Assembly: GCA_024711125.1 (NCBI GenBank)
Contig: JANJTM010000038.1
Coordinates: 124,001-188,000 of the forward strand
Source of the DNA: Rhodothermales bacterium
GTDB lineage: Bacteria > Bacteroidota > Rhodothermia > Rhodothermales > UBA10348
DNA length: 64,000 nucleotides
Direction of reading: 5' to 3'
Position 1 is the first letter of the stretch. The number at the start of each line of letters is the position of its first letter. Of the stretch, positions 11,694-52,753 are shown in pieces. The notes below the pieces were generated by a model, which saw nothing but the letters and a program-made list of their open reading frames with translations, was not told where the DNA came from and did not search any database. The translations under genes were made by a program, and so were the position numbers.

Positions 11694-12908
11694 CTACCAG
11701 TCGATCGCCTCGGTCTCTACCATGGCGCCGGCAGGCGCGGTGTCCCACGCGGCCGGCAGGTGGACGATGCGATCGGCTCTCAGGACGCTGGTGAAGAGGT
11801 TCGACCCCTGTTCTCCGGTCGGTCGCACCGTGGATCGCCCGTCGCCGTCCTCCCCGGCGACACCCCGCGCGAACACGTGCAGCCCCGGCGGTTTCGGGAA
11901 TGCCGTCTCCAGCGCCGCCCGGATTCGCGGTCGAAGGACGGTGCTCCGTCCGAGCATCGTCGCGATCGCCGGGCGCGCGTACTGATCGAAGCAGATCGAC
12001 GACGATACCGGGTTGCCGGGCAGGCCCAGGACCGGAACGCCGTCGAGGCGACCGAAGAGCAGGGGATTCCCCGGGCGCTGCATCACCTTCCAGAAGTCTG
12101 CGACGAATCCCCGTTCGCGCAGCGCTTCGTGCACGAGATCGTACCGACCCATCGACACGCCCCCGGAAAACACGACGAGATCGGCCGTTCGCGCCGCATC
12201 GATCACCGAGAGCAGGTCCTTTTTCGCGTCGGGCGCATGATAGGCGCCGTGCAACTGCGCGCCGGCCCGCTCGGCCTGCACGGACAGCGCGAAGGCGTTG
12301 GTGTTGTAGATCTCGCCCGGCCGCAGGCCCCGCGAACCCGGCTCCACCAGTTCGCTGCCCGTGGTCACGAGGGCGACGCGCGGACGTTTCCTTACCGGTA
12401 CCCGGCCCAATCCGAGCCCGGCCAGCACACCTACCGCACCCCCGCCCAGGACCTGCCCCGCCGACACCACCGTATCCCCGCGGCCGACATCCTGCCCTGC
12501 GGGGCGCACGTGGGCTCCATCGGGCGGAAAACGGAGGATCCGAACGGCAGACGTGCCCGCGTCCTCCGTCCACTCGACCGGAACCACCAGGCCGGTGCCC
12601 TCCGGGACGGGCGCACCGGTCATGATGCGTACGGCAGTGCCCCGTTCCACGGTTTCGGCCCACGGAGATCCTGCGGCGGCCTCCCCGATCACGCGCAATA
12701 CCCTCGGCGGCTCGCCCCGGTCTGCCGACGCGACCGCATACCCGTCCATGGCCGAATTCGCGAACGGCGGGACGTCGTGGGGCGCCTCGATGTCCCTCGC
12801 CGCCGTGCGCCCCGCGGCTTCGGCCAGGGGAACGGTCTCTTCAGAAAGCGTCCGACAGACCGAAAGCACGAGGTCCCGCGCTTCCTCGACGGCGATCGAC
12901 GTGCGCAT
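11694..12908 (-). CDS. moeA: Molybdopterin molybdenumtransferase
   Basis: MRTSIAVEEARDLVLS...PPFANSAMDGYAV, RIMTGAPVPEG, TTGSELVEPG, PGNPVSS motifs. Confidence 0.95.
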   Translation of the reverse strand: MRTSIAVEEARDLVLSVCRTLSEETVPLAEAAGRTAARDIEAPHDVPPFANSAMDGYAVASADRGEPPRVLRVIGEAAAGSPWAETVERGTAVRIMTGAPVPEGTGLVVPVEWTEDAGTSAVRILRFPPDGAHVRPAGQDVGRGDTVVSAGQVLGGGAVGVLAGLGLGRVPVRKRPRVALVTTGSELVEPGSRGLRPGEIYNTNAFALSVQAERAGAQLHGAYHAPDAKKDLLSVIDAARTADLVVFSGGVSMGRYDLVHEALRERGFVADFWKVMQRPGNPLLFGRLDGVPVLGLPGNPVSSSICFDQYARPAIATMLGRSTVLRPRIRAALETAFPKPPGLHVFARGVAGEDGDGRSTVRPTGEQGSNLFTSVLRADRIVHLPAAWDTAPAGAMVETEAIDW

Positions 12909-12945
12909 GGTGCGTAGTTTGCGTTTCCGGAAACCGATTCCTGTC

Positions 12946-14217
12946 ATGATACGATTCGATGCCTCGGGCACGCAGCCCTTCCTCTCGGGCGACGCCATGG
13001 ACCGGGCCCACGCCTCCGTTCTCGCCGCACGTCGAACCCTGGTTGACGGTTCGGGGTCGGGCAACGCTTTCCTGGGTTGGCGGGATGTGCTGCGCAGTCC
13101 CGATCCTGACCTGATGGATCGCCTCCGGTCCGACGCCGAAGAGATCCGCGAGCGGGCCGATATCCTGGTCTGCATCGGCATCGGCGGTTCCTACCTGGGG
13201 GCTCGAGCCGTGCTGGACGCGCTGGGTCCGTATTTCGGTCCGGGCAGGGGACCCGAGATCCTCTTTGCCGGGCACCACATGTCGGGAGCCTACGTTCGCG
13301 ATCTGCTGGACCGACTGGAAGGTCGGTCGGTATACCTCAACGTCATCTCGAAGAGCGGCACGACGCTCGAGCCGGCGCTCGCCTTCCGCTTTCTCCGCAA
13401 GTGGGTCGAAGACCGGTTCGAAGACGCGGAACGGCGCATCCTCGTTACCACCGATCCGGAACACGGTGCGCTGAACGTCCTGCAGCGGGAAAAGGGGTAC
13501 CGGAAATACGTCATCCCTCCTTCCGTGGGTGGCCGGTTCTCCGTGCTGACCCCGGTAGGCCTGCTTCCGCTCGCCGCGGCCGGAGTGGACGTGACGGCCC
13601 TGTTCGACGGTGCCGTCGACGCGTTCCATGCCTGGGAGTCCGAAGCCGACAACCCGGCCGTGCGGTACGCCGCGACGCGTCACCTGCTCTACGAGGCAGG
13701 GTATACCACGGAGATCCTCGCCGTCTTCGAGCCGCGCCTGGCGGGCATCGGGGGATGGTGGCAGCAGCTGTTCGGGGAAAGCGAGGGCAAGGACGGAAAG
13801 GGCATCTTTCCGTCAACCCTCCAGTATTCGACGGACCTGCATTCGCTCGGGCAGTATGTCCAGGACGGTCGTCGCACGTTGATGGAGACGTTTCTCGTGG
13901 CGGACGAAGACGATGGCGGGTTGACGGTTCCGGCGTGGCCGGGGGACGAGGACGGCCTGAATTACCTGGCCGGTCGAACCCTGTCAGAGATCAACCGGAA
14001 GGCGTTCGAGGGTACGGCCCGTGCGCACCTGGACGGCTTGGTGCCCGTCATGAGGCTTGGAATGGATCGGATTTCGGAACGGGAGATCGGGCAGCTGCTG
14101 TATTTCTTCCAGTTCTCGGTAGCCGTGTCCGGATACCTCCTGGGAGTCAATCCCTTCGACCAGCCGGGCGTCGAAGCGTACAAGAAGGAGATGTTTCGCC
14201 TGTTGGGAAGGCCTTGA
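12946..14217 (+). CDS. pgi: Glucose-6-phosphate isomerase
   Basis: CIGIGGSYLGARAVLDALG, VISKSGTTLEPALAFR, GVDVTALFDGA..., FPSTLQYSTDLHSLGQYVQDGRR. Confidence 0.92.
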   Translation: MIRFDASGTQPFLSGDAMDRAHASVLAARRTLVDGSGSGNAFLGWRDVLRSPDPDLMDRLRSDAEEIRERADILVCIGIGGSYLGARAVLDALGPYFGPGRGPEILFAGHHMSGAYVRDLLDRLEGRSVYLNVISKSGTTLEPALAFRFLRKWVEDRFEDAERRILVTTDPEHGALNVLQREKGYRKYVIPPSVGGRFSVLTPVGLLPLAAAGVDVTALFDGAVDAFHAWESEADNPAVRYAATRHLLYEAGYTTEILAVFEPRLAGIGGWWQQLFGESEGKDGKGIFPSTLQYSTDLHSLGQYVQDGRRTLMETFLVADEDDGGLTVPAWPGDEDGLNYLAGRTLSEINRKAFEGTARAHLDGLVPVMRLGMDRISEREIGQLLYFFQFSVAVSGYLLGVNPFDQPGVEAYKKEMFRLLGRP

Positions 14218-14229
14218 GCCGTTACCCAC

Positions 14230-14660
14230 CGGGCGTCGTGCACAATCCGTGGAAAACGGGGTCAACCGTGTAGACGGTCGGGGGGATGTCCCCGGTCCCG
14301 GAACCGCACGTGGAAAAGACGACTCCCACACCCGCCGTATCCACGGTCGCCGCACGGGTCCGGTGGTTGTGGAAAACGGGGGCGAAGGTGGCCGGCGCTC
14401 GTGGAAAACACGTGGAAAGGTGGAAAACCCGGCCAGAAGGGGTTTCATGGTCTCGTGGCGGGACCTACGGATGTCCTCTTTCCACAGCGGGTAGGCAGGA
14501 TGCCGGGGCATCTCGTGGAGAAAGACTTATTCCCCTTTGTCCACATCCCTATTACGAGAGCTACCCTTTTTCTTCTTCTTTCATGCTCTTGTTGAGGCGT
14601 CGTGGATTCGTGGATACCCTGCATACGGATGGGGGTAGTCGTTTGTAGCCTCAACCGGAC
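14230..14660. other. Candidate replication origin (cluster of DnaA-box-like motifs and AT-richer tract)
   Basis: GTGGAAAA/GTGGAAAG-type 9-mers at 14248, 14309, 14369, 14400, 14411, 14419; reverse-oriented CTTTCCACA 14478, TTGTCCACA 14537, GTATCCACG 14337; CGTGGATTC/CGTGGATAC 14601/14609; AT-richer tract 14521-14595. Confidence 0.55.
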
Positions 14661-14698
14661 GTCGATTACCTTCGATCCAGCTTCCGCAGGGCATCCCC

Positions 14699-15538
14699 AT
14701 GATCAAGAAGATCCTCGTCGCACTCGACCCCGATTCCGACACCGCCGTCGCGGTGCGCTATGCCATCGATCTGGCCCGGAGATTCGACGCGGAGATAACG
14801 GCGATGGCGGTCGTCGACATGGGCAGCATCGACTCGACGACCCGGGGAGGAGGAATCGGCAGCATGTACTACGCCGACATCCTTCGCGAGCAACTGACGA
14901 TCGAAGCCCGCGAGAAAGCGCAGGAACTCATCGAGCGGTTCGGAGACCTGGTTGCGGACGCCGGCGTGCGGTCTCACGAGGTCGTACGGGAGGGAGTGCC
15001 CTTCGATCGGATTGTCGAGGACATGAAGTACCACGATCTGTTGATCGTCGGCAAAAACCCCCACTTCTTCTACAGCCACGAGAAGAGGCCTACGGAGACG
15101 CTCGCGAGACTGGTCGCGACGACCGTGGGGCCTTCGCTGATCGTTCCGGACGATCTTCGGGACATTCGCCGCGTGCTGCTTGCCTTCGATGGCAGCCATG
15201 CCGCCGCCCAGGCGATGCAGTCCTTCGTACAATTGTGCCCGTTCGGTCGGGACGTGGCGGTGCGCGTACTGTGCGTGCACAAGGAGACATCGGCCGATTC
15301 CGATCTCGCGCTTCGCTTCGCCGAGTCGTACCTGAAGGCGCACGGATTCGACATCCAGGTGGTCTCGATGCAGTCCGATTCGGTGGAAAAGGCGATCATG
15401 GACAACGTGGAGCACTTCCGGGCCGACCTGGTGGTGGCGGGAGCGCACTCGAAGTCCTTCCTTCAGAAGCTCGCTTTCGGATCCACGACGGCCCACCTGG
15501 TCAGGGACTGCCCGGTGGCGCTGTTCCTCGACAGTTGA
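14699..15538 (+). CDS. Universal stress protein, two tandem UspA domains
   Basis: MIKKILVALDPDSDTAVAVRYAIDLARRF...; second half VLLAFDGSHAAAQAM...DLVVAGAHSKSFLQKLAFGSTTAHLVRDCPVALFL. Confidence 0.9.
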   Translation: MIKKILVALDPDSDTAVAVRYAIDLARRFDAEITAMAVVDMGSIDSTTRGGGIGSMYYADILREQLTIEAREKAQELIERFGDLVADAGVRSHEVVREGVPFDRIVEDMKYHDLLIVGKNPHFFYSHEKRPTETLARLVATTVGPSLIVPDDLRDIRRVLLAFDGSHAAAQAMQSFVQLCPFGRDVAVRVLCVHKETSADSDLALRFAESYLKAHGFDIQVVSMQSDSVEKAIMDNVEHFRADLVVAGAHSKSFLQKLAFGSTTAHLVRDCPVALFLDS

Positions 15539-36536: not shown

Positions 36537-37730
36537 TCAGCGGCCCCGGCGGGGTACCGTCGGAAGGCGTCTGACGACCATCACGGTCGCGTCGTCCGCC
36601 CACGGTGAGCTGCCGCCGAAACGATCGGCGTCATCGAAGATGGCCTGCAGGACGGTTTGCGCCGATTCGGTGCGCAGGTCCCGGGCAAGCGCGACAAGGC
36701 GCTCGGTCCCGTACATCTCGTCCCCCGGCCCGGAACGCTCGATGATGCCGTCCGAGATCAGGACGAGCAGGTCGCCGGGCGCCATGCGCACGAAATTGCG
36801 CTCGAGCGGGATCTCGGGCAGGGGTCCGAAGACCGTTCCCGTGGGCTCGAGCTCGACCATGCGCCCCTCGGAGAACAGCATGGGCGACACGTGTCCCGCG
36901 TTGGCGTAGAGCAGGTTTCCGTTGTGTTCGATCTCCCCGTAGAAGACCGACATGAATCGGCTGGACCAGGACGATCGGTGCACGATGCGGTTCAGCTTCT
37001 TCATCGTGTGCAGCATCTTCAGCTGCGCCTCCATGCCCATCCGGATCCCCGTGATGACGTCGCGCACGAGAAGCGCGGCAGGCAGGCCGTGACCGCTGGC
37101 ATCGCCGATCGAGATGCCCACGACGTCCGGGCCGAGGTCGATGTAGTCGAAGAAGTCCCCGCCCACGGATTCGGCCGGGATCGACCGGGCGGCGAACTCG
37201 AAGCCCGGGAACGTGGGCACACCCGACGGAAGGAGGCTTCGCTGGATCTCGGCGGCCTGCTCCATGTCGTTCCGCACGGCCTCGGCCTGCAGCCGGTTGT
37301 TCAGCGCGAAGCGCACGGCGTTCATCGCGAACGCGACCTCTTCGTGCGACCACCCCTCCAGGAGGTCGTAGACGAACAGCCACCGGCGAAGCGAGGTGCG
37401 CCAGACCGCGAACGCCGCGGGAACGACGATCCCGTTGTCGGTGGTTTCGGCGAACTCGGCGCGGTCGAAAAGGTAGCTGCCGTGCTCGTCGATGGCCTGC
37501 ACGATAGGGTGGTCGGCGTGAAGCCGCTCCGGACCGCGGCTTCCCGCGATGCGCACGAAGTCTTCGTCGAGCTGTTCGTACAGGCGCCCCGACGAAAACC
37601 GGAGCGATGGACCGAACGAGGCTTCGAAGGCCGCGAGAATGTCGGGCAGGAAGCTCGAACCGTCGCTCTGGAGGCGGATGCGGGCGAGAAGGGCGTCCAG
37701 CGCCCGGTAAAAGGCCTTGGGGTCGAGCAT
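36537..37730 (-). CDS. SpoIIE/RsbU-type PP2C serine phosphatase
   Basis: EQAAEIQRSLLPSGVPTFPGFEFAARSIPAESVGGDFFDYIDLGPDVVGISIGDASGHGLPAALLVRDV...ISDGIIER. Confidence 0.92.
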   Translation of the reverse strand: MLDPKAFYRALDALLARIRLQSDGSSFLPDILAAFEASFGPSLRFSSGRLYEQLDEDFVRIAGSRGPERLHADHPIVQAIDEHGSYLFDRAEFAETTDNGIVVPAAFAVWRTSLRRWLFVYDLLEGWSHEEVAFAMNAVRFALNNRLQAEAVRNDMEQAAEIQRSLLPSGVPTFPGFEFAARSIPAESVGGDFFDYIDLGPDVVGISIGDASGHGLPAALLVRDVITGIRMGMEAQLKMLHTMKKLNRIVHRSSWSSRFMSVFYGEIEHNGNLLYANAGHVSPMLFSEGRMVELEPTGTVFGPLPEIPLERNFVRMAPGDLLVLISDGIIERSGPGDEMYGTERLVALARDLRTESAQTVLQAIFDDADRFGGSSPWADDATVMVVRRLPTVPRRGR

Positions 37731-37777
37731 GGGGATCGGCCGGTACGCCGGCTCACATCGTGGGAAAAGGGCGAGAC

Positions 37778-39262
37778 TCAGAAGGGAGCGTCATCGCCCG
37801 GCTCCCCGTAGCCGTCACCGGCCCGGCCGAAGTCGCCGGCGGGACGGGCGGACGAACTGGTATACGTGGTCAGGTTCTCGAACCGGGCGTGCTGGTGCAC
37901 GAACGCGAGCTTGACGTCGCCCGTCGGGCCGTTCCGCTGTTTGCCGACGATGATCTCGGCGATGCCCTCGGTCGAATTGCCCGCCTCGTCGACGGTGATG
38001 CCGTACCGCTCGGCCCGGTAGATGAACGCGACCACGTCGGCATCCTGCTCGATGGATCCCGATTCGCGAAGGTCCGACAACTGCGGGCGCTTGTCTCCAC
38101 CGCGCGTTTCGACCGCTCGCGAGAGCTGGGAAAGCGCGATGACCGGTACGTTCAGCTCCTTCGCCAGCGATTTGAGCGATCGGGAGATGTGCGCGATTTC
38201 CTGCTCCCGGTTTGCATTGCGGCTCATGGCCGTGGCATGCATGAGCTGCAGGTAGTCGACGATGACGAGCCCGATGTCGTGCTCGGCCTTGAGCCGGCGG
38301 CACTTGGCCCGCAGCTCGAGGATCGTGAGGCCGGGCGAGTCGTCGATGAAGATGGGTGCCCGGGAAAGGCGCCCCGCCGCGCGGGCGAGTCTCGGCCAGT
38401 CCTCCTCGCTGAGCCGGCCGGTGCGTGCGGCCTGGGCATCGACGCGGGCCTCGGACGTCAGCATGCGCTGGGCAAGCTGCGCCGAGCTCATTTCGAGCGA
38501 GAAGATGGCTACCGCTGCCGGGTGCTGGGCGTGCAGGGCCGCGTTCCGTGCCATCGCCAGCGAAAACGCGGTCTTGCCCATCGACGGACGCGCCGCAATG
38601 ATGATGAGGTCAGACCGCTGCCAACCGCCCGTGAGGTTGTCCAGCCGGCTGAAGCCGCTCGGAACGCCGGTAACCCCCCCTTCGCGTCCGTGGATCGCCT
38701 CGAGTTGCGTCAGCGTGTCCTTGATGACGTCGTTCATCGACGCCGCCGACCGCCTCAGCTGGGTGTCGGAGATGCGGAATATCTCGCCCTCGGCCGAGTC
38801 GAGCAGTTCGAACGCGTCGGCCGTGGGGTCGTACGCCGAGGAGACGAGCCCCGTCATGGTCTCGATCAGCGATCGCAGGAGGGACTTCTCGGCGATGATG
38901 CGCGCGTGGTACTCCACGTTGGCCGCCGTCGCCACTTTCGACGTCAGTTCGGTGACGTAGTAGGCGCCTCCCGCTTCGTCGAGCTGTTCCCGCCGCCGCA
39001 GTTCCTCGGTGACGGTGATGATGTCGACCGGGTTGCCGCGCTCGAACAGCGCCAGCATCGCTTCGTAGATGCGCGAATGCCGCCCCGAATAGAACGCGTT
39101 GGGCGGCAGGATCTCGACCGCCCTCGGAATCGCCTCGCGCTCGATCAGCATGGCGCCCAGGACGGCCTGTTCCACCTCGACGGCCTGCGGCGGCACGCGG
39201 CCGCCCAGGTCAGGCACGGGGCGCTCGAGGCGCGCGGGCAGGATGTCGGAGGAATCGCTCAC
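37778..39262 (-). CDS. dnaB: Replicative DNA helicase
   Basis: VPPQAVEVEQAVLGAMLIEREAI; IIIAARPSMGKTAFSLAMARN; VIVDYLQLM; GDVKLAFVHQHARFENL. Confidence 0.96.
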   Translation of the reverse strand: MSDSSDILPARLERPVPDLGGRVPPQAVEVEQAVLGAMLIEREAIPRAVEILPPNAFYSGRHSRIYEAMLALFERGNPVDIITVTEELRRREQLDEAGGAYYVTELTSKVATAANVEYHARIIAEKSLLRSLIETMTGLVSSAYDPTADAFELLDSAEGEIFRISDTQLRRSAASMNDVIKDTLTQLEAIHGREGGVTGVPSGFSRLDNLTGGWQRSDLIIIAARPSMGKTAFSLAMARNAALHAQHPAAVAIFSLEMSSAQLAQRMLTSEARVDAQAARTGRLSEEDWPRLARAAGRLSRAPIFIDDSPGLTILELRAKCRRLKAEHDIGLVIVDYLQLMHATAMSRNANREQEIAHISRSLKSLAKELNVPVIALSQLSRAVETRGGDKRPQLSDLRESGSIEQDADVVAFIYRAERYGITVDEAGNSTEGIAEIIVGKQRNGPTGDVKLAFVHQHARFENLTTYTSSSARPAGDFGRAGDGYGEPGDDAPF

Positions 39263-39284
39263 GAGTCCGTTCGCTGTCGTGGGT

Positions 39285-40082
39285 TCAGGTCGAGGTCAGT
39301 TCGTCGTATCGGCGACGGAGCTGCTGTACGTCGTCCCAGGTCGGCCGTTTCCATTCCGGGTTGCGCAGCAGCGCCGCCGGATGGAAGGTCACCATGACCT
39401 CGAGGCCGTGGAAATCGTGGAACTGCCCGCGAAGCTCCTTGAGGCTCGACTGCCGGCCGAGCAGCGAGTTGCCGGCCGTGCGGCCGACGCAGAGCAGGAG
39501 TTTCGGCCGGATGAGCGTGATCTGCCGGAGCAGGATCGGCAGGTGCGCCGCCACCTCGTCGGGCAGCGGGTCCCGGTTGCCCGGCGGGCGGCTCTTGAGG
39601 ATGTTCGCGATGTAGACGTCGTCGCGCTCGAACCCGATCGCCTTCAGGATCTGCGTGAGCAGCTGCCCGGCCTTGCCCACGAACGGTTCGCCCTGCCGGT
39701 CCTCGTCGGCTCCGGGCGCTTCGCCGACGACCATGAGGTCCGCCTCGGGATTTCCGACCCCGAAGACCGGGTTGATCCGGGTCTCGTCGAGCGGAATCAG
39801 CACGGTGCCGCGCACGTAGGCCTCCAGCTCGTCGAGCGTCCCGATGGACAGTACGGGCGACCCGACCGGGATGCTCGCCGCGATGCGATCGTAGGGGGAG
39901 GATCCCGCTGCCGGGGGCGCCATGGAAACGGGGGGAGGATTCGTGTTCTGCCCGGTCCCGGGGTCCGGGGCGGGAGCGGTGCGCACCGAGAGCGGGTCGT
40001 TCCGCAGGAGCTCGTACCGCCCGTAGACGTGCACGTGGTGCTCGACCGCGGCGCGCAGCAACTGGTGGACGTCGTCGAACAT
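39285..40082 (-). CDS. Type-4-like uracil-DNA glycosylase
   Basis: [59 protein letters not shown]...[18 protein letters not shown]. Confidence 0.92.
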
Positions 40083-40173
40083 CGGGAGCGCAAGGTGAAC
40101 CGGTAGAGTACGGCCTGCCGACGGCCCCGACCGGGCACGTTGCCAACGATTTCTCAACAGGGGCCGCGGAATC

Positions 40174-41394
40174 CTACCTCGGGGCGCTCACGCGGTCGAG
40201 CAGGAGCGACGCGACGGCGGCCTTGGGCAGGACCGGAAAATCCTCCCGTCCCCCTTCCCGCGAGAGCAGGGTCACCCGGTTGGTATCCGGGCCGAACCCG
40301 GCGCCCGTTTCGTTCGGATCGTTGAGCACGATGTAGTCGAGGTTCTTCCGCTCCAGCTTGGCCCGTGCGTTCTCGAGGCCATCGTGGGTCTCGAGGGCGA
40401 ACCCGACGAGCACCTGCCCCGCCCTTTTCGACGCGCCGAGTCCCGCGAGCACGTCCGGGGTGCGGCGCAACCGGAGCATGAGATCGTCGTCGGCCTTCTT
40501 CAGTTTCCGGTCGGAGGATTCCACCGGCGCGTAGTCGGCGACGGCGGCGGCCGCCACGACGAGGTCGGCGTCCGGGACCGAACGCACGGCCCGCTCGAGA
40601 TCGTCGGCCGAGCGGATGTCCACGCGGTCCACGCCCGCCGGGGTTTCGAGCGACGTCGGTCCCGTGACCAGCGTGACGCGGGCGCCGCGCCGGGCCGCCT
40701 CGGCGGCGACGGCGAATCCCATGGTGCCCGTCGAGCGGTTCGACAGGAATCGCACCGGGTCCAGGTCCTCGACCGTCGGGCCCGCGGTCACCAGTACGTG
40801 GCGGCCGGCCAGCGACCGGTCTTCCGGCGCGGCAGCCCCCAGCATGCGCGCGATGCGCTCGAAGATGGCGGCGGGATCGGGAAGCCGGCCCTTCCCGACC
40901 AGGCCGCTCGCGAGTTCCCCCTCCTCGGGCGGCATGACGTGCACGCCGTGGCGCACGAGCAAGGCGAGGTTCTCCTGCGTGGCCGGGTGCTCGAACATGT
41001 CGTGATCCATCGCCGGGCAGACGAGGACGGGGCAGGCGGCCGACAGGTAAACGGCAGTCAGCATGGAATCGCAGTGCCCGTGGGCCAGCTTGGCCATCGT
41101 GTTGGCCGTCAGCGGCGCGACGACGAGCAGTTCGCCCCAGCGGCCGAGGTGCACGTGCCGGGTCCAGCTTCCGTTCGGAGCATCCGGGACCAGGTCCACC
41201 AGCACCTCCCGCTCCGACAGCGTGCCGAGCGTCAGGGGCGTCACGAACCGTGTCGCCTCCCGGGTCATGAGCACCTGCACCAGGGCACCGGCCTTCTTGA
41301 GCAGGCGCACGAGCTCGGCGGTCTTGTAGGCCGCGATTCCGCCCGTGACCCCGAGGAGGACGCGTCGGCCCGCCAACGGCTTGGGATCGGACAT
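40174..41394 (-). CDS. coaBC: Bifunctional phosphopantothenoylcysteine decarboxylase/synthase
   Basis: MSDPKPLAGRRVLLGVTGGIAAYKTAELVRLLKKAG; VLVTAGPTVEDLDPVRFLSNRSTGTMGFAVAAEAARRGA. Confidence 0.95.
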   Translation of the reverse strand: MSDPKPLAGRRVLLGVTGGIAAYKTAELVRLLKKAGALVQVLMTREATRFVTPLTLGTLSEREVLVDLVPDAPNGSWTRHVHLGRWGELLVVAPLTANTMAKLAHGHCDSMLTAVYLSAACPVLVCPAMDHDMFEHPATQENLALLVRHGVHVMPPEEGELASGLVGKGRLPDPAAIFERIARMLGAAAPEDRSLAGRHVLVTAGPTVEDLDPVRFLSNRSTGTMGFAVAAEAARRGARVTLVTGPTSLETPAGVDRVDIRSADDLERAVRSVPDADLVVAAAAVADYAPVESSDRKLKKADDDLMLRLRRTPDVLAGLGASKRAGQVLVGFALETHDGLENARAKLERKNLDYIVLNDPNETGAGFGPDTNRVTLLSREGGREDFPVLPKAAVASLLLDRVSAPR

Positions 41395-41402
41395 GGGGTG
41401 CC

Positions 41403-41984
41403 TCAGGTGGTGGAGCCCGACAGGAACGACCGTACGAGCGCGATCGTTTCGCCGGCCGCCCGATCCAGGTCGTCGTTGACGACGACGGCGTCGAACCGGT
41501 CGCGGTAGGTCAGCTCGTAGCGTACACGCTCCAGGCGGGTTTCGAGGTCGGCCGGCGTCTCGGTTCCGCGCAAACGCAGCCGGGATTCGAGGATCCCGTA
41601 GCTGGGAGGGCTGATGAAGACCACGAAGGCGTCCGCTCCGAAAACCCGCTTGACGGAGGTAGCGCCCCGAACGTCGACGTCGAGAAGGACCGGCGCGTCG
41701 GTCGAGGACCGTTCGACCTCCTCGACGAGCGTGCCGTACCAGCGGCCGGGGTAGACCTCCTCGCATTCGACGAAGGCGTCGTCGGCGACCCGGCGGCGAA
41801 AGGTGGCCTCGTCGAGGAAATGATACTCCCGTCCGTCCCGCTCCCCGGGGCGGGGCGGGCGCGTGGTCGCCGACACCGAAAAGCGCATCGACGGAAAGGC
41901 GGCGAGCAGTCGCGCCGCCACGGAGCTCTTCCCGGCTCCCGACGGGGCCGTCACCACGACGATGCGCGGTCCCTTACTCGACAT
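41403..41984 (-). CDS. gmk: Guanylate kinase
   Basis: IVVVTAPSGAGKSSVAARLL; FSVSATTRPPRPGERDGREYHFL. Confidence 0.95.
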   Translation of the reverse strand: MSSKGPRIVVVTAPSGAGKSSVAARLLAAFPSMRFSVSATTRPPRPGERDGREYHFLDEATFRRRVADDAFVECEEVYPGRWYGTLVEEVERSSTDAPVLLDVDVRGATSVKRVFGADAFVVFISPPSYGILESRLRLRGTETPADLETRLERVRYELTYRDRFDAVVVNDDLDRAAGETIALVRSFLSGSTT

Positions 41985-42858
41985 TCTCGATCTGCTCCTT
42001 GATCTTCTCGAGGTCCTCCTTCATCGCGATGACGACGTGGGCCACCTCGGCGTCGTTCGCCTTGGATCCGATCGTGTTGACCTCGCGGTTCATCTCCTGC
42101 GAGAGGAAGTTCAGCTTGCGTCCGACCGCCTCGGGCGTGTCGAGCGCCTGCCGGAAGAGGTCGAGGTGGGACCGCAGGCGCACGCACTCCTCGGTGACGT
42201 CGATGCGGTCGGCGATGTAGGCCATCTCCTGTTCCAGGCGCTCCGGGTTGACGCGGGCGTCCTGGAGCAGGTCCTCGAGCCGCTGCCGGAGCCGGTCCCG
42301 GATTTCCGGAAGGCGGAGCGGAACGCGGGCCTCGACCACGGCGAGGGAGGCCTCGATGCGGTCGATCCGCCCGAGCAGCTCGGTGCGCAGCGCCAGGCCC
42401 TCCTGACGGCGCATGGCCGACAGGGCCTCGAGCCCGGCCTGCACGGCCCGGCGGACGGCAGCCCAGGCGTGCTCGCCCGCGTCGGGATCCTCGGGTCTCG
42501 GCACGAAGAGGTCCGGGAAGCGCAGCAGGTGGTCGAGTTCGAACGGCACATCCTCGAGCCCGGCGGCCTCCCGGATTTCGTCCAGGGCCCGCCGGTAGGT
42601 TCGCACGGCGTCGGGGTCGACGGTGACGGAGCGCTCGCTCCGGGACGCCGAATCGAGCTGCACGCTCACCGAGACGCGTCCGCGGGACACGGCGTCCTTC
42701 ACGAGGCGCTGGACCTCGGTGTCCCGTTCGGCGACCTCGCGCGGAAGGCGGGTCGAGACCTCGCAGAAGCGGGAGTTGACCGAGCGCAGCTCGACGGTGG
42801 CGACGAAGCCGCCGGCTTCGGCCTGGGCGCGGCCGAAGCCGGTCATGCTGGCGATCAT
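41974..42858 (-). CDS. YicC family endoribonuclease/stress protein
   Basis: MIASMTGFGRAQAEAGGFVATVELRSVNSRFCEVSTRLPRE...; C-term SKANDAEVAHVVIAMKEDLEKIKEQIENVE. Confidence 0.93.
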   Translation of the reverse strand: MIASMTGFGRAQAEAGGFVATVELRSVNSRFCEVSTRLPREVAERDTEVQRLVKDAVSRGRVSVSVQLDSASRSERSVTVDPDAVRTYRRALDEIREAAGLEDVPFELDHLLRFPDLFVPRPEDPDAGEHAWAAVRRAVQAGLEALSAMRRQEGLALRTELLGRIDRIEASLAVVEARVPLRLPEIRDRLRQRLEDLLQDARVNPERLEQEMAYIADRIDVTEECVRLRSHLDLFRQALDTPEAVGRKLNFLSQEMNREVNTIGSKANDAEVAHVVIAMKEDLEKIKEQIENVE

Positions 42859-43003
42859 GGGGATCGGGGTTCGTGCGAGGAAAGGGAAGTGCCCAAAATA
42901 CGCCCGTTGCGGAACGGGGACCCGTCAGCGGGTGCGGAAGTCGCCGAGTAAGGCGCCGATCCGTCGGAGCAGGTCGAGCGTGCGGGCGTCCGGGGGTCGG
43001 CGG

Positions 43004-43163
43004 GGGGACATCGCTGCGCTCGTCCCCTGGGGCGGGACCGGGCGTCGGCGGGTCGCATCGCTTCGCTCGCTCCTGTGCGGGGTCGGGCCTCGGCGTGGGG
43101 ACATCGCTGCGCTCGTCCCCTTCGACTGGGCCTCGGCGTGGGGACATCGCTGCGCTCGTCCCC
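43004..43163. repeat. Three copies of palindromic 24-mer GGGGACATCGCTGCGCTCGTCCCC
   Basis: Copies at 43004-43027, 43097-43120, 43140-43163; last two within identical 36-bp direct repeats. Confidence 0.85.
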
Positions 43164-43265
43164 TGGGAGGTGGCGGGAGGGATTACGCCTGGGGCGTGGA
43201 TCCCGGGGTGGGGGGACCTTACATCGAATCTCCCGTTGCGCGGGCCCCTGGAGGGGGCCTGTCGC

Positions 43266-43318
43266 GCTCCGAGGGAGGGCACTACGCGAGCGAGCTCGCT
43301 CCGGCCCTCCCTCGGAGC
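43266..43318. repeat. 15-bp perfect inverted repeat GCTCCGAGGGAGGGC / GCCCTCCCTCGGAGC
   Basis: Arms 43266-43280 and 43304-43318; loop contains AGCGAGCTCGCT palindrome. Confidence 0.85.
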
Positions 43319-43320
43319 AC

Positions 43321-43356
43321 GAACGCCCGCTGCGCGGGCGCGCGCAGCGGGCGTTC
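43321..43356. repeat. 15-bp perfect hairpin GAACGCCCGCTGCGC / GCGCAGCGGGCGTTC just downstream of tRNA-Ser
   Basis: Arms 43321-43335 and 43342-43356, 6-nt loop. Confidence 0.85.
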
Positions 43357-43360
43357 GATG

Positions 43361-43448
43361 CGGAGAGGGAGGGATTCGAACCCTCGGTACCGGGTTACGG
43401 TACACACGCTTTCCAGGCGTGCCCCTTCAGCCACTCGGGCACCTCTCC
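43361..43448 (-). tRNA. tRNA-Ser(GGA)
   Basis: Reverse strand GGAGAGGTGCCCGAGTGGCTGAAGGGGCACGCCTGGAAAGCGTGTGTACC...GGTACCGAGGGTTCGAATCCCTCCCTCTCCG; long variable arm. Confidence 0.95.
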
Positions 43449-43555
43449 GGCTTGCCCCCGCGAGGGGGCGGGGGCTGTCGAATGCACCACGGCGGGCCAG
43501 GTTTCTCCGGGGCGGGCTCGACGGGAGCGCAACCGGAGGACGGGCCCGGCCGGGG

Positions 43556-44125
43556 TCAGACTTCCATGATTTCGGCCTCCTTGTGCTGGAGGAGCGAGTC
43601 GATCTTGTGGATGTAGTCGTCGGTCATCTTCTGGAGGAGGTCCTCGGCCTCGAAGCGCATGTCCTCGGGCAGGCCTTCCTCCTTCTGCATGTCCTTGATA
43701 TGGTCCTTCGAGTGCCGGCGCACGTTGCGCACGGCGATCTTGGCGTCCTCGCCGCGCGTCTTCGCCCCCTTCACCAGGTCGCGCCGCCGTTCCTCGGAAA
43801 GCGGGGGCACCGGAAGGCGGATGAAGGAACCGTCGTTGGACGGGTTGAGGCCGAGGTTGGCGGCCTGGATGGCCTTCTCGACGTCATTGAGCACGGACCG
43901 ATCCCACGGCTGCACGACGATGAGGTCGGGCTGCGGCGCCGAGATCGAGGCCATCTGGGCGAGCGGAGTGTGCGTGCCGTAGTAGTCCACCCGCACGTTT
44001 TCCAGCATCGCGGGCGATGCCCGTCCCGCCCGGATGGCGCGGAGGTCCTGCCGGAGGTGTTCGACCGTCTTGTCCATGTGGTCCTTCGCTTCGTCGAGGA
44101 CCATCTGCAGGCTTTCGTGGAGCAT
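43556..44125 (-). CDS. frr: Ribosome recycling factor
   Basis: VEHLRQDLRAIRAGRASPAMLENVRVDYYGTHTPLAQMASIS...; C-term LLQKMTDDYIHKIDSLLQHKEAEIMEV. Confidence 0.96.
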   Translation of the reverse strand: MLHESLQMVLDEAKDHMDKTVEHLRQDLRAIRAGRASPAMLENVRVDYYGTHTPLAQMASISAPQPDLIVVQPWDRSVLNDVEKAIQAANLGLNPSNDGSFIRLPVPPLSEERRRDLVKGAKTRGEDAKIAVRNVRRHSKDHIKDMQKEEGLPEDMRFEAEDLLQKMTDDYIHKIDSLLQHKEAEIMEV

Positions 44126-44142
44126 GGTGGTGCGGACTCGGT

Positions 44143-44907
44143 TCAGGCGCTTGCGGGAACGGCGGCCGAGTCCCAGTGGACGAGGGATCCGACGGGCTCT
44201 CCCTTGAGCAGGCGCAGCAGGTTTCCGGGTTCGTTGAAGTTGAAGACGACGATGCGCAGCGACGATTCGCGGCACAGCGTGAACGCGGTCAGGTCCATCA
44301 CGCGCAGGTCCCGGGCAATGACCTCATTTCCGTGGATGGACTCGAAACGCGTAGCGGACGGGTCCTTTTCCGGATCGGCGGTGAATATCCCGTCGACGCG
44401 CGTGCCTTTCAGCAGCACGTCGGCGTCGATTTCGAGGGCGCGGAGCGCCGCGGCGGTGTCCGTCGTGAAGTACGGGTTGCCCGTTCCCGATCCGAAGATC
44501 ACGACGCGGCCCTTTTCGAGATGGCGGATCGCGCGTCGCCGGATGAACGGCTCGGCGATCTGTTCCATCTTGATGCTGGACTGGAGGCGGGTCTTGAGAC
44601 CGGCCTGCTCGAGCGCGTCCTGCAGGGCCATGGCGTTGATCATGGTCGCCAGCATGCCCATGTAGTCGCCGTGGGCGCGCGTCATTCCCCCGTGTGCGTT
44701 TCCGACCCCCCGGAAGATGTTGCCCCCTCCGATCACGACGGCGACCTCGGCCCCGGCGTGTACCGCCGAACGGATCTCGGCGGCGTAGCTCGCAAGCACG
44801 TCCTGGTCGATTCCGAACTCCCGGGAGCCCATGAGCGACTCGCCGCTCAGCTTGAGCAGGATGCGGCGGTACCGGAGCGGACCGTCGACGGGTAGGGTGT
44901 CGGCCAT
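44143..44907 (-). CDS. pyrH: Uridylate kinase
   Basis: [53 protein letters not shown]. Confidence 0.96.
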
Positions 44908-45024
44908 GGGGATGGGGAACGGGGTTCCGGCAATCTACGCGGTCCGATGGGGCCGTTCAATCGACTCCCGACGGGGCCAAGGGCTCCCGTAGGCGGGATT
45001 CCCCTGCGATTCACGACGGAAACC

Positions 45025-45063
45025 CGAAAAAACGGGCGCGCCGGCCCACCGGCGCGCCCGTTT
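45025..45063 (-). terminator. Rho-independent terminator downstream of tsf
   Basis: AAACGGGCGCGCCGG-ccca-CCGGCGCGCCCGTTT perfect 15-bp stem with T run on the minus strand. Confidence 0.85.
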
Positions 45064-45080
45064 CCTGGATGCGGAAGGGC

Positions 45081-45911
45081 TCAGTCGCCCAGCGCGAAGC
45101 GGACGAACGTGCGAACGTCGGCCTTGGCCGCCTGCAGCATGGCCGAGACCGTCTGGGACGAGTCCTTGACGAACGGCTGTTCCAGGAGAACGTTGTCCTT
45201 GAAGTAGCGATCGAGCTTGCCCTGGGCGATGCGCTCGACGATCTGCTCCGGCTTGCCTTCGTTGCGTGCGACTTCCCGGCCGATCTCGAGTTCGTGCTGC
45301 TGGATCTCCTGCGGAACCTCTTCCCGCCGGGTGGCGACCGGATTCATGGCGGCAACCTGCATCGCGACGTCCCGACCGGCAGCGACGACGTCGCCGGAAC
45401 CGGTCGCATGCACCAGCACGCCGAGACGGGCGCCCGGGTGGATGTAGGCCACGACTTCGCCTTCGGTCACGGAGAGCACGGCGTGACGACGAACGTCGAT
45501 CTTCTCGCCGATCTTGCCCGTCATGTCGGTAAGCGACTGTTCGATCGTGCGTCCGCCCTCGAGCGTGAGTGCGAGCAGCGAATCCCGATCGGAAGGCCGG
45601 GCCGAAAGGACCAGGTCGGCGATCGACTGGGCATACGACTGGAATTCGTCGTTACGCGCAACGAAATCGGTCTCGCAGTTCACCTCGACGAGGATCGCCG
45701 TCTTCGCGTCGCCCGTGGCGGCGGTGGCGATGATCCCCTCCTTGGCCTCGCGGTCGGCGCGCTTGGCGGCGACCTTCTGGCCCTTGACGCGCAGGATGTC
45801 GATGGCGGCTTCGAAATCACCGTTGGACTCCTCGAGCGCCCGCTTGCAGTCCATCATGCCGACACCCGTGATGTCGCGCAGTTTCTTGACGTCTCCGGCT
45901 GAAATGCTCAT
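45081..45911 (-). CDS. tsf: Elongation factor Ts
   Basis: MSISAGDVKKLRDITGVGMMDCKRALEESNGDFEAAIDILRVKG. Confidence 0.96.
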   Translation of the reverse strand: MSISAGDVKKLRDITGVGMMDCKRALEESNGDFEAAIDILRVKGQKVAAKRADREAKEGIIATAATGDAKTAILVEVNCETDFVARNDEFQSYAQSIADLVLSARPSDRDSLLALTLEGGRTIEQSLTDMTGKIGEKIDVRRHAVLSVTEGEVVAYIHPGARLGVLVHATGSGDVVAAGRDVAMQVAAMNPVATRREEVPQEIQQHELEIGREVARNEGKPEQIVERIAQGKLDRYFKDNVLLEQPFVKDSSQTVSAMLQAAKADVRTFVRFALGD

Positions 45912-46014
45912 GGCAATGGCAGGTTGTCCGGACGGGCGAGCCCCGCTCGACCGTCCGGAGGGTCTGTGTTGGGAGGCAGGACGGCCGCAGGCACCCCGGG
46001 CCGACCCGTGCGAC

Positions 46015-46794
46015 TCAGTCCTCGTCTTCGGACTCGTCGTGGGCCTCTTCGGCGCGGCGCTCTTCGGCGGCCGCAGCCGTGGTTTCATGTACGTCCTTCT
46101 CCTTGTCGCCTTCCGAGACGGCCCGGGCGATCACCGCGGTGATCAGCTCGATCGAGCGCTGGGCGTCGTCGTTGGCCGGGATCGGAAAGTCGACCTGGTC
46201 GGGGTCGCAGTTCGTGTCGACGAGCGCGACGATCGGGATACCGAGACGCTGCGCTTCCTGGACCGCGATGTGCTCGCGGTTGATGTCGACGACGAAGAGG
46301 GCGCCGGGAAGCCGGGCCATGTCCTTGATGCCGCCGAGCGTCTTTTCGCGCTTCGCGCGCTCGCGACGGCGCATCAGGCGCTCCTTCTTCTTGAGCTGGT
46401 CCATGGTGCCGTCCTCTTCCATGCGGACGAGGTCCTCCATGCGACGGATGCTCTTCTTGATCGTCGCGAAGTTGGTCAGCGTACCGCCGAGCCAGCGCTC
46501 GGTAACGTACGGAGAGCCGCACTCCACCGCGTACTTCTTGACGATGTCACGGGCCTGCTTCTTGGTGCCCGTGAACAGGACCTTGCGACCCCGCTTCGCA
46601 AACCGCGAAACCGCGTCGGCGGCGGCATCGAGGTAGGTCTGCGTCTGGTTGAGGTCGATGATGTGGATCCCGTTCCGCTCCATGAAGATGTAGGAGCGCA
46701 TCTTGGGATTCCAGCGGGACGTGAGGTGGCCGAAATGGGTACCCGCCTTCAGCAGGTCCTCGATTTCGACGCGATGCTGGGGCGTCGTGGTCAT
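46015..46794 (-). CDS. rpsB: 30S ribosomal protein uS2
   Basis: [35 protein letters not shown]...[17 protein letters not shown]; acidic tail. Confidence 0.97.
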
Positions 46795-46893
46795 TATGTC
46801 GTTCGGGTTGGTCCGCTACGTCCGTCGCCTGGGAACCCCGAGCCGGAAACCGGCCACCCCGGGGACCCATCGGGTCGTATGCGAGATGAAAAC

Positions 46894-46916
46894 GGCGGCC
46901 GGACTGTCCGGCCGCC
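46894..46916 (-). terminator. Rho-independent terminator downstream of rpsI
   Basis: GGCGGCCGGA-ctg-TCCGGCCGCC followed by TTTT on the minus strand. Confidence 0.75.
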
Positions 46917-46929
46917 GCCTGGCTCGAAA

Positions 46930-47325
46930 CTAGCGCTTCGAGAACTGGAACCGCTTGCGGGCCTTGGGCTGGCCGTACTTCTTGCGCTCGACCATGCGGG
47001 GGTCGCGCGTCAGGAAGCCGGCGTCGCGCAGCGGCTTGCGGTTTTCCTCGTTGTTCTCCACGAGCGCACGGGCAATGCCCATGCGGACGGCCTCGGCCTG
47101 TCCCGTGGGGCCGCCTCCGCGCACGTTCACGACCACGTCGAAGCGGTCCTGGGTGCCGGTGACGGCGAGGGGGGAAACGATGGCGCGGCGGCTCCACTCG
47201 AGAGGAAAGTAGTTCTCGAGGTCGCGGTGGTTGATGACCACCTTGCCGGTGCCGGGACGGAGGTATACGCGGGCGACCGAGGTCTTGCGTCGGCCGACGG
47301 CGTTCTGCTGTGCGGGTGCTGCCAT
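46930..47325 (-). CDS. rpsI: 30S ribosomal protein uS9
   Basis: [31 protein letters not shown]...[17 protein letters not shown]. Confidence 0.97.
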
Positions 47326-47350
47326 ACGGGAGGTAGGCGGAAAGGACGGA

Positions 47351-47794
47351 CTAGAGCGACAGCAGCTCGGGCTGCTGGGCTTCGTGCGGGTGCTCGGTGC
47401 CGGCGTACACCTTCAACTTCCTGAACATCTGCCGGCCGAGAGGACCCTTGGGGAGCATGCCCTTGATGGCATTCTCCACGATGAAGATCGGCTTGCGGTC
47501 GCGCATCTCGCGCGGCGTACGAAGGGTCACGCCCCCCGGATACCCGCTGTAGCTGAAGTACTCCTTGTCGTCCTCCTTCTTGCCGGTGAACCGCGCCTTG
47601 TCGGCGTTGATCACGATCACGAAGTCGCCGGTGTCCACGTGGGGCGTGAACGACGGCTTGTGCTTGCCCCGGAGGACAGACGCCACGTGCGAAGCGAGGC
47701 GGCCGACGACCTGGTTCTCGGCGTCGATCACGTACCACTTGCGCTCCACGTCGGCGGGGCGGGTACTGACCGTTTTGAATGAATTGACGTCCAT
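47351..47794 (-). CDS. rplM: 50S ribosomal protein uL13
   Basis: [50 protein letters not shown]...[20 protein letters not shown]. Confidence 0.97.
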
Positions 47795-48157
47795 GCTGCT
47801 GGAGGGCCGGAACGGGGCATCCGGCGCGTGCTGCGGTGTGATTGCGACTCGTGGTGGGAAAGCCGCAGTCGTGCAAAATACGCACATCGCGGTCCGGGGT
47901 CAACGGCGTGGGCCCTGCCGTGAGCCCTGGCGCGCTCGAAGGCCGCCGACGCGACCCCGGCAACGCGAACGTCTGCCACGCCCGGGCCTTCGGACGGTTT
48001 TCGAGGACTGCCCCAATTCCCGTATTCTTGACGAAGTGCCGTCCATCGGTCACAAACCGGTCGGCTCCCGGCTCCATTGGTCCCGGGGGTGGGCCCCGGG
48101 GGGACAGTCCGGTGACCGTCCCGAAGCCACCGCGTCACATCAACCATTGTTCCCATC

Positions 48158-48877
48158 GTGCGCCGCGTCTCCGATCTGCCCGAACTGGACGGTCTCGCGT
48201 CGAGGCTGCCGTTTCGTCTCGACGCGGTGGACGAAGCGGGAGCGGTCTTCGAGCGCTGGCTGCGCGCGCCGAACGACGCGGACGAGTACGTCGTGGCTCT
48301 GTGGACCTACTGCTACGTGCGCCGATACTTTCTCGTGCGATTCGCACGGGAGCCGTCCTTCACGGGCGGCGAACTGGAGCACGTCATCGACCAGGCCTAC
48401 GAACGGGTGGAGCGAGGCCGCTCGGACCTGCGCGAGCCGTCCCGATACGCCCGGTGGGTCGTGGTCGTGTGTCGCAACACGTATGTCAGCTTCGTGACCC
48501 GGCGAAGTCAGCCCATGGAACTGGACCGCGTGGCGGAACCCTCTGCGTCACCGGACGAGCTGGACGATTGGCACGAAAACGCCGGCCTCGCGTCGGCGGT
48601 GCGGTCGGCCGTGGAACGGCTTCCGCCCTTCCTTCGTCCCTATGCCGAGCAGCGGTTTCTCCACGGCGCCAACTACGAGGCGATCGCTTCGGCCATGGGC
48701 CGGGATCCGGCCACCGTGCGCGCCTACGCCCACAAGGCGCTGGCGCGACTCCGGGCCGACCGGCGCCTGGTCCGATGGCTGCGGGAATTCGCAGGTTATG
48801 AACCGCCCGCCCTGGAGTCAGAGGGGGCAACGTCGGCGTCGCGAACCGGAGCCGACAAAGCGAGAGAACGAAAATGA
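48158..48877 (+). CDS. Divergent sigma-70/ECF-like sigma factor
   Basis: Region 4-like PPFLRPYAEQRFLHGANYEAIASAMGRDPATVRAYAHKALARLRADRRL. Confidence 0.65.
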   Translation: MRRVSDLPELDGLASRLPFRLDAVDEAGAVFERWLRAPNDADEYVVALWTYCYVRRYFLVRFAREPSFTGGELEHVIDQAYERVERGRSDLREPSRYARWVVVVCRNTYVSFVTRRSQPMELDRVAEPSASPDELDDWHENAGLASAVRSAVERLPPFLRPYAEQRFLHGANYEAIASAMGRDPATVRAYAHKALARLRADRRLVRWLREFAGYEPPALESEGATSASRTGADKARERK

Positions 48878-49707
48878 ATCCTGGGAATACCGCGGAACGC
48901 GTACTCCTCGCGGCCCTGCTGCCCGATGAGGATCGCGCCGCCTGGCTTTCGGACGCCAACCCCGGCGGCCCCGGGAGGGCGGCGATCGAACGGCTGGAAA
49001 AGGGGCTCGCCGATGCCGGCCTCCGGCCGGATGCCTCGGAATCGACGATGGACACGCTCGCCGCCCACAGGAGCGGACTGCTCCCGGCGGAACGGCCCGC
49101 GTTCGATCGTCGTGTCGAGCAGCTCACGACCACGCTTCCCGACGCGGGCGACGTACTCGCGCGGTGGAGGGAGCGCTGCGAGCGCATGGCCGCGTTGGAC
49201 GCCTCGCTTCCCGCAGAGGCCCACTTCGAGCGATTGTCGGGTCGCTCGGCATCCCCCGGGCGTACGGCCGAGCCGGCCCGGGTCCATCGACTCTGGCCGG
49301 TCCGGTGGTGGGCGGCCGCGGCGGTCGTCGTGACGCTCGGTGCGGCGGGCGCGATCGGACGGGTCAGCGAAGACGAGGACGCGAGGGCCGCGTGGCGATC
49401 CGTCGAAGCGCGAATCGACATGCGAACCCGGGGGCCCCAGGCCGCGTCCGACTTCGGATCGTGGACCCAAAGGGCGCTCGGCAGCCGCTCGTTGCGTCTC
49501 GGACTGTGGCCGGTCTACGACCGGGACGCCTTGGACGCCCTCGAACGGGACGTCCTGGAGTCCGAGGACGGCTCGCCGGAAAGCCTGCTCCTGCTGGGCG
49601 AACTCCGCCTCATGCGGGGCGAGCGCGAAGCGGGCCTGGTTGCGCTTCGTGCCGCCGCCGGGGCGGGCAACGAACAGGCCCGGGTGCTGCTCGGTCGCGT
49701 CGAATGA
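48874..49707 (+). CDS. Single-TM protein of unknown function, possible anti-sigma factor
   Basis: ATG overlaps sigma-like gene stop (ATGA); TM segment VRWWAAAAVVVTLGAAGAIG; TPR-like C-term. Confidence 0.5.
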   Translation: MNPGNTAERVLLAALLPDEDRAAWLSDANPGGPGRAAIERLEKGLADAGLRPDASESTMDTLAAHRSGLLPAERPAFDRRVEQLTTTLPDAGDVLARWRERCERMAALDASLPAEAHFERLSGRSASPGRTAEPARVHRLWPVRWWAAAAVVVTLGAAGAIGRVSEDEDARAAWRSVEARIDMRTRGPQAASDFGSWTQRALGSRSLRLGLWPVYDRDALDALERDVLESEDGSPESLLLLGELRLMRGEREAGLVALRAAAGAGNEQARVLLGRVE

Positions 49708-49732
49708 GCGGAATCCGGGGCCACGGCCCCGA

Positions 49733-50860
49733 TCACGCGTACGTGTTCAGCATCACCGGCATGATGAGCATCATCATGCTCTCGCCGTCCTTCTGCTCCA
49801 ACGGCACGACGATGCCGGCACGGTTCGGGGAAGAAAACTCGAACTGGACCTCGTCGCAGTCGATGTTCGACAGCACCTCGGTCAGGTATACCGCGTTGAA
49901 TCCGATCAGCATGTCGTCCGAGTCGTACTCGCACGCGACGGTTTCCTGGGCCTCGCTGGCCCGCTCGATGTCCTCGGCCGAGATGCGCACGCTGTCGGAC
50001 GACAGGGCGAGGCGTACCTGGTTCGTCATCGACGACGAATAGAGCGCGACGCGCTTGACCGCGGCGAGCATGGCGTCGCGCGAAACCGTGAGCCGCTTCT
50101 CGTTGTCGACCGGGATCACCGCCTGGTAATTCGGATAGGTCTCGTCGATCAGGCGCGCGAGCACGCGCGAGCGACCGAAATCGAACGCGACGTAGCCGCC
50201 GTCGACGAGCACGGTGCAGGGGTCGTCCGTCGCCACGCGGGATGCGAGGTTGACGGCCTTTTCCGGAACGATGAACGACACGGGCTCACTCGACAGCATG
50301 CGGTCGAGCGACAGCTTGACCAGGCGATGCCCGTCGGTGGCGACCGCCTTGCCGCCGTCGGGTCCGATCTGGAAGAAGATGCCCATCATCGCGGGTCGCA
50401 GCGCGTCCCGGCTCACCGCGAAACCGGTCTTGTGGATGGCGCGCTTGAGCAGCCCTCCGGACGTCTCGATGCGCGTCGTCTCGGCGAGTTCGGGAAGCGC
50501 CGGGTAGTCGGCCCCGTCGAATCCGACCATCTTGTACCGGCCCTGGGCGGTCTTCAGGAGAACGTTGAAGTCGCCGTCGACCGAGAATTCGACCGGGGTT
50601 TCGGGCAGCGCGCGCAGCGTGTCGAGCAGGCGCTTCGCGGGGACGGCTACCCGGGAGGCGCTGCCGTCGGTGCGGTCCAGCGTCACCGAGATCTTCTGCC
50701 GGATCGAAATCTCGAGGTCGGTCGCGCTGAGGCGCAGCGTATTGATGTCGGCCTCGAACAGGATGCACTCCAGGATCGGCAGCGTGCTCTTGGTCGGAAC
50801 GGCACCGGATACGGTCTGCAGGGCCTTGAGGAGGTCGGCGCTGGAGGCGGAAAACTTCAT
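49733..50860 (-). CDS. dnaN: DNA polymerase III subunit beta
   Basis: MKFSASSADLLKALQTVSGAVPTKSTLPILECILFEAD...; C-term MMMLIMPVMLNTYA. Confidence 0.97.
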   Translation of the reverse strand: MKFSASSADLLKALQTVSGAVPTKSTLPILECILFEADINTLRLSATDLEISIRQKISVTLDRTDGSASRVAVPAKRLLDTLRALPETPVEFSVDGDFNVLLKTAQGRYKMVGFDGADYPALPELAETTRIETSGGLLKRAIHKTGFAVSRDALRPAMMGIFFQIGPDGGKAVATDGHRLVKLSLDRMLSSEPVSFIVPEKAVNLASRVATDDPCTVLVDGGYVAFDFGRSRVLARLIDETYPNYQAVIPVDNEKRLTVSRDAMLAAVKRVALYSSSMTNQVRLALSSDSVRISAEDIERASEAQETVACEYDSDDMLIGFNAVYLTEVLSNIDCDEVQFEFSSPNRAGIVVPLEQKDGESMMMLIMPVMLNTYA

Positions 50861-50910
50861 GACGGGAAGTCGGGATGGGCCGAGGTGCGGGAAGCGGACG
50901 TTCGGTTCGG

Positions 50911-50918
50911 CAAAGGTA
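50911..50918 (-). promoter_or_regulatory. Bacteroidota-type -7 element (TACCTTTG) upstream of dnaN
   Basis: Reverse strand reads gcgtTACCTTTGccg, exact match to TAnnTTTG, 51 bp before dnaN start. Confidence 0.45.
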
Positions 50919-51004
50919 ACGCACGGGCAACGCCTTTGCAGCCGAGGAAACGCCCGGCCGCGGCGGGTGCCCGGCGGTTTCCCGCGGCGGGCGCGGACAC
51001 GGGA

Positions 51005-52501: not shown

Positions 52502-52753
52502 GGCGGACCGGGACGGTTCGCGTCGATGCGGGCTTCGAGGGCCTGACGGGCTGCCGTCCGGCCACGGTACGGGGTCGCGGAACGCCGCGTGGGGGTTTCG
52601 ATGGTAACGTGTCCCGACCCGAACTTCAACGCACGTGAACCCGATTTCACAAACCCGCCGGTATGAAGTCCGTGCGGAAGCGGCACGGCGGACGGGGCCC
52701 GCATGTGGACGGACGAGCGGAACGGCTGTATATTAACAGGCTCCTTGAAAAGC

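Follow-up and report, generated by a model that had tools for sequence, protein, structure and literature searches.

The intergenic region between the stop codon of pgi and the start codon of usp (positions 14218-14698) is very probably the chromosomal replication origin (oriC) of this Rhodothermia bacterium, as judged from its sequence features and surroundings. These were analyzed in a window of 64,000 nucleotides, meaning the whole stretch of DNA considered here (C49:124001-188000, in a genome assembly of 81 contigs), and GC skew was followed along the entire 216.5-kb contig C49. The gap combines a cluster of DnaA boxes that is rare in the genome with an adjacent skew switch, an AT-rich element, parS sites nearby, and a position and layout conserved across the order, which are the features by which an oriC is recognized. 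The initial annotation had proposed either an origin or a DnaA-titrating locus at this place, and the skew minimum, the parS/gid synteny, a unique motif of the basal unwinding system (BUS) type, and the conserved position and layout favor the origin.

Within positions 14230-14660 (431 bp), 11 9-mers differ by at most one mismatch from five accepted forms of the DnaA box, compared with a mean of 0.43 and a maximum of 4 in 2000 dinucleotide shuffles. Contigs C49 and C13 have backgrounds of 0.49 and 0.59 such matches per kb, respectively, and in the 296 kb of genome scanned the runner-up 431-bp stretch, located at the promoter of a second dnaA gene (dnaA2), holds 5 matches. No similar motif density was thus found in the other stretches examined (a maximum of 5 versus 11), a similar density elsewhere being one of the outcomes that the initial annotation had named as refuting its reading. 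The entire 3.79-Mb genome contains 49 copies of the form TTTTCCACR, and they form a cluster of four at one place only, the pgi-usp gap. The majority of the boxes are TTTTCCACG, found on the minus strand at 14248-14256, 14309-14317, and 14400-14408, together with TTTTCCACA on the same strand (14368-14376). Box-like sequences complete this part of the cluster, with GTATCCACG (14337-14345) and CTTTCCACA (14478-14486) on the plus strand and the overlapping CTTTCCACG (14411-14419) and TTTTCCACC (14419-14427) on the minus strand. All eleven 9-mers originally listed between pgi and usp are present in the sequence at the positions given, except that TGTGGAAAA begins at 14368 and not at 14369. An additional near-match absent from that list, CGTGGAGAA, was found at 14514, the site of the weak box-like TTCTCCACG of the minus strand (14514-14522). 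No perfect TTATCCACA was found within the cluster.

The cumulative GC skew of C49 is V-shaped. It falls steadily until C49:137039 (window 13039), where it has its minimum 1.2 kb from the box cluster, and then rises, still doing so beyond the dnaN-linked initiator gene, dnaA1. A minimum elsewhere, which the initial annotation had named as refuting its reading, was not found on the 216.5-kb contig. Only two parS sites exist in the 3.79-Mb genome (C49:100923-100938 and 102815-102830), both 36-37 kb to the left of the cluster, and the pair adjoins mnmE-gidA-gidB, with gidA about 35 kb from the gap. The mnmE-gidA-gidB genes are often found close to bacterial origins. On the other side lie dnaA1 (51005-52501), about 37 kb from the cluster, and dnaN, encoding the sliding clamp (49733-50860), both on the minus strand. 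Contig C49 consequently shows the usual neighborhood of an origin, with the gid/parS block on one side, dnaA-dnaN on the other, and the proposed origin between them. The single ParB gene is located on a different contig, C43, apart from both parS sites.

The orientation of the genes to the right was a stated caution for rpsB, which is correct and applies equally to dnaA-dnaN, as both would be head-on to a rightward fork leaving the gap. They belong to a long, mostly minus-strand run of genes at window positions 36537-52501 that has this head-on orientation. The strand bias of genes on the right arm is weak, with no clear flip. Head-on genes and a weak strand bias are tolerable given that skew, parS, motif, and synteny all agree.

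The immediate neighbors of the gap are both encoded on the plus strand: pgi, for glucose-6-phosphate isomerase, as the conserved left neighbor (12946-14217), and usp, for a universal stress protein, on the right (14699-15538). The reading frame of pgi is open for about 195 codons upstream of 12946, from 12361, and this extension (12361-12945) has no NCBIfam match. Its counterpart in relatives is similar but interrupted by stop codons. The true start of pgi is probably 12946 rather than 12361, and the extension may be the shadow of a minus-strand gene.

The right part of the gap has the organization of an unwinding region. A box on the plus strand, TTGTCCACA (14537-14545), is followed by the GC-rich spacer TCC (14546-14548), by CTATTAC, by an AT-richer pyrimidine tract, and by two inverted boxes. 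The first six positions after the spacer (14549-14554, plus strand) form two proximal DnaA-trios, CTA TTA, read as 3'-GAT-AAT-5' on the other strand; the trio block is thus degraded to two, compared with at least three in many relatives. Based on its AT content and sequence, the tract at 14549-14600 is the probable unwinding element; it contains a run of NTN triplets, CTT-TTT-CTT-CTT-CTT, counted by eye at 14566-14580. The inverted boxes CGTGGATTC and CGTGGATAC (14601-14617, minus strand) close the AT-rich element on the side away from TTGTCCACA, and in many relatives a GTGGA box in reverse orientation stands at the corresponding position. AT content reaches 50-63% at about 14533-14595 versus about 23-43% across most of the gap to the left. 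The AT enrichment of the segment suggested beforehand as an unwinding element (14521-14595) was therefore confirmed, and the segment coincides with the conserved trio-bearing, AT-rich part of the gap. Furthermore, the pattern TCCAC-N4,5-CTAYTAC has a single occurrence in 3.79 Mb, at 14537-14554.

In Bacillus subtilis, the BUS combines a DnaA box with DnaA-trios that follow it after a short spacer (PMC8287927, PMC10721633). The published search rule asks for a DnaA box, a spacer of up to 16 bp, and at least three consecutive DnaA-trios (PMC8287927), each defined by a central A, which corresponds to T on the box strand. TTGTCCACA with its TCC spacer has the box (at most two mismatches) and the short spacer of this rule. 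A strict search for runs of at least three trios gave no match in the window, where the maximum was two consecutive trios, and we therefore term the locus BUS-like rather than a full BUS.

By analogy with the B. subtilis BUS, we infer that DnaA would most likely bind, melt, and fire the origin at this gap. DnaA would bind TTTTCCACR and the related boxes at 14248-14545 and, from the anchor at 14537, would extend along the trio-bearing strand. It would then melt the AT-richer tract at about 14549-14600, with the inverted boxes at 14601-14617 as the boundary beyond it. Two helicases would be loaded, and two forks would depart in opposite directions.

The conservation of the locus was examined in 27 genomes of the family, belonging to 10 genera, of which 23 had usable sequence. 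The pgi-gap-usp arrangement, with the box cluster and the unwinding motif, recurs in 19 of the 23, and also in the majority of the other families examined within the order. The box-spacer-CTAY motif leads into trio-like triplets in 19/23 as well, many of them with three or four clean trios (as in G002, G003, G015, G022, G012, and G009). In family members, the 300 bp that follow pgi hold 13-19 boxes per kb, and the density drops to about 0.5-2.7 per kb at distances of more than 500 bp. Of 31 genomes compared across the order, 26 have a spacer of 4 bp. The trio columns free of search constraint, positions 5-7, are strongly conserved, with T in 29, A in 30, and C in 27 of the 31; columns 1-4 of the trios and the TCCAC core were fixed in advance by the search pattern and carry no weight as evidence. 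The box-spacer-trio motif is also found in families f4, f9, f10, f11, f12, and f14, and family f6 and some members of f12 have the boxes with no trio match. The cluster beside pgi is absent in families f2, f8, and f13 and in G052, one member of f7 (loci of relatives without it: L214-L216, L223, L226, L231, and L240). In these lineages, the origin has probably moved away from pgi. The box cluster between pgi and usp, whose conservation the initial annotation had offered as a check, is therefore kept in the majority of genera of the family and in several families outside it, and the pgi-side position of the proposed origin is old within the order.

Gene order and skew extend this comparison to a single-contig genome, G060, of family f10, which we call Rhodothermus-type; this label and that of the Salinibacter-type genome (f12, G082) were assigned by inference. 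The order pgi-gap-usp-comEC-phosphoesterase-ychF is common to G060 and the source genome. The skew minimum of G060 lies at 31,161, only about 140 bp beyond the edge of the pgi-usp gap, and its dnaA is at 0.5 kb, about 30 kb away. In G004 and G009, the skew minima are at most 0.7 kb from the 3' end of pgi, and the minimum of G012 lies 11.6 kb away. G014 and G045 have no global skew minimum around pgi, and conservation of the skew signal among the relatives is partial. In the literature searched, we found no published origin for Rhodothermus or Salinibacter, and DoriC may list predictions. The pgi-usp locus would be an ordinary DnaA-type origin at a location that we have not found described for this clade.

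Nearly all members of the family have two dnaA genes. In the source genome, the second is complete and lies outside the window (G000:C13, about 44057-45487, plus strand; L012), and its product is identical to DnaA1 at 221 of 468 aligned residues. The dnaN-linked DnaA1 groups with the DnaA of the Rhodothermus-type genome, which has only one. DnaA2 belongs to a divergent, fast-evolving clade with long branches and groups with the second copy of the Salinibacter-type genome. The trio-contact residues of B. subtilis DnaA are Asn187, Ile190, Ile193, Arg202, and Glu228 (PMC10721633). DnaA1 and DnaA2 both differ from these at several sites. The dnaA2 promoter has a triad of boxes at about -145 (plus strand), -127 (minus strand), and -107 (minus strand), located at G000:C13:43907-43961 and in the same place in L241-L244 and L128-L130; it was found in all 8 relatives with usable sequence. 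No box array is common to the dnaA1 promoters compared. The triad suggests that DnaA controls the expression of dnaA2, and DnaA2 possibly shares or regulates initiation. More speculatively, and with rather low probability, the pgi-linked oriC may be served by two DnaA proteins, with DnaA1 as the main initiator and DnaA2, expressed from its three-box promoter, working at the same boxes either as an additional initiator or as a regulator. If true, such a division could explain relaxed boxes and trios like those of the source genome. In a member of family f3 (G038), 17 matches to the DnaA ATPase family were observed, and the matches listed are for the most part weak, with lengths of about 250-270 aa. 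These short matches are perhaps transposon helper ATPases.

It is important to consider what else a dense group of boxes could represent. Titration loci likewise carry DnaA boxes, and the density of the cluster about 37 kb from dnaA, together with the weak trio block of the source genome, would suit a DnaA-titrating or recharging locus (like datA or DARS of Escherichia coli) lying within the origin region, with the origin itself elsewhere. In E. coli, datA and DARS are not known to have DnaA-trios or an unwinding element or to lie at the skew switch. At the gap, the element is present, the box-spacer-trio motif and the AT-rich segment are conserved, and the switch lies within about 1.2 kb; moreover, the genome has no second TTTTCCACR cluster to act as the origin. 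An oriC is preferred because titration predicts neither a skew switch nor a DnaA-trio motif, which leaves a titrating locus very improbable.

An origin beside dnaA, the common arrangement in bacteria, has slightly less probability still, whether upstream of dnaA1 (52502-52750) or of dnaA2 on C13. The dnaA2 promoter is indeed the second densest box group, with its 5 matches in 431 bp, but these boxes form a promoter-like triad, and C13 has no V-shaped skew minimum at dnaA2. Upstream of dnaA1, where the initial annotation saw no comparable cluster, there are zero box matches, and the skew keeps rising past the gene; the minimum in G060 is likewise beside the pgi-usp gap, some 30 kb from dnaA. 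The imperfection of several boxes and the degraded trio block could also be taken as marks of a functionless relic, a secondary origin, or a chance expansion of repeats. This is the least probable of the explanations, as the arrangement and its location persist in most of the family's genera and in several families beyond it, even though the sequences have diverged widely. Neither a titration locus nor an origin beside one of the two dnaA genes fits the data as well as an oriC at the pgi-usp gap.

These results would place the replication origin for Rhodothermia, a largely uncultured branch. Setting the zero of the map at dnaA, the choice made in the Rhodothermus-type assembly, would put it about 30 kb from the origin, and estimates of growth rate from metagenome coverage need the correct origin. 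Additionally, many relatives have a very clear BUS motif and the source genome a degraded one, which provides natural variants for the question of how many DnaA-trios an origin requires.

Compared with known systems, the proposed pgi-usp origin shares with E. coli datA and DARS the presence of a DnaA box cluster distant from dnaA. In layout it resembles the BUS of B. subtilis (DnaA boxes 6/7, a GC-rich spacer, and DnaA-trios), since here too a box and a short GC-rich spacer precede CTA-type triplets, 3'-GAT-5' on the opposite strand, that lead into an AT-rich segment. The closest solved relative of DnaA1 is 8btg, a seven-chain entry of B. subtilis DnaA, which presumably represents the BUS complex described in PMC10721633. 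Unlike the B. subtilis BUS, the pgi-usp origin is not at dnaA, the spacer to the nearest box is 3-4 bp, and the source genome has only two clean trios. The oriC of E. coli is flanked by mioC and mnmG/gidA and separated from dnaA by tens of kb. The pgi-usp origin differs from it in its flanking genes, pgi and usp, in the distance of about 35 kb to gidA, and in having no perfect TTATCCACA box, and resembles it in lying far from dnaA, in a gap flanked by unrelated genes, and in having the gid genes in its neighborhood.
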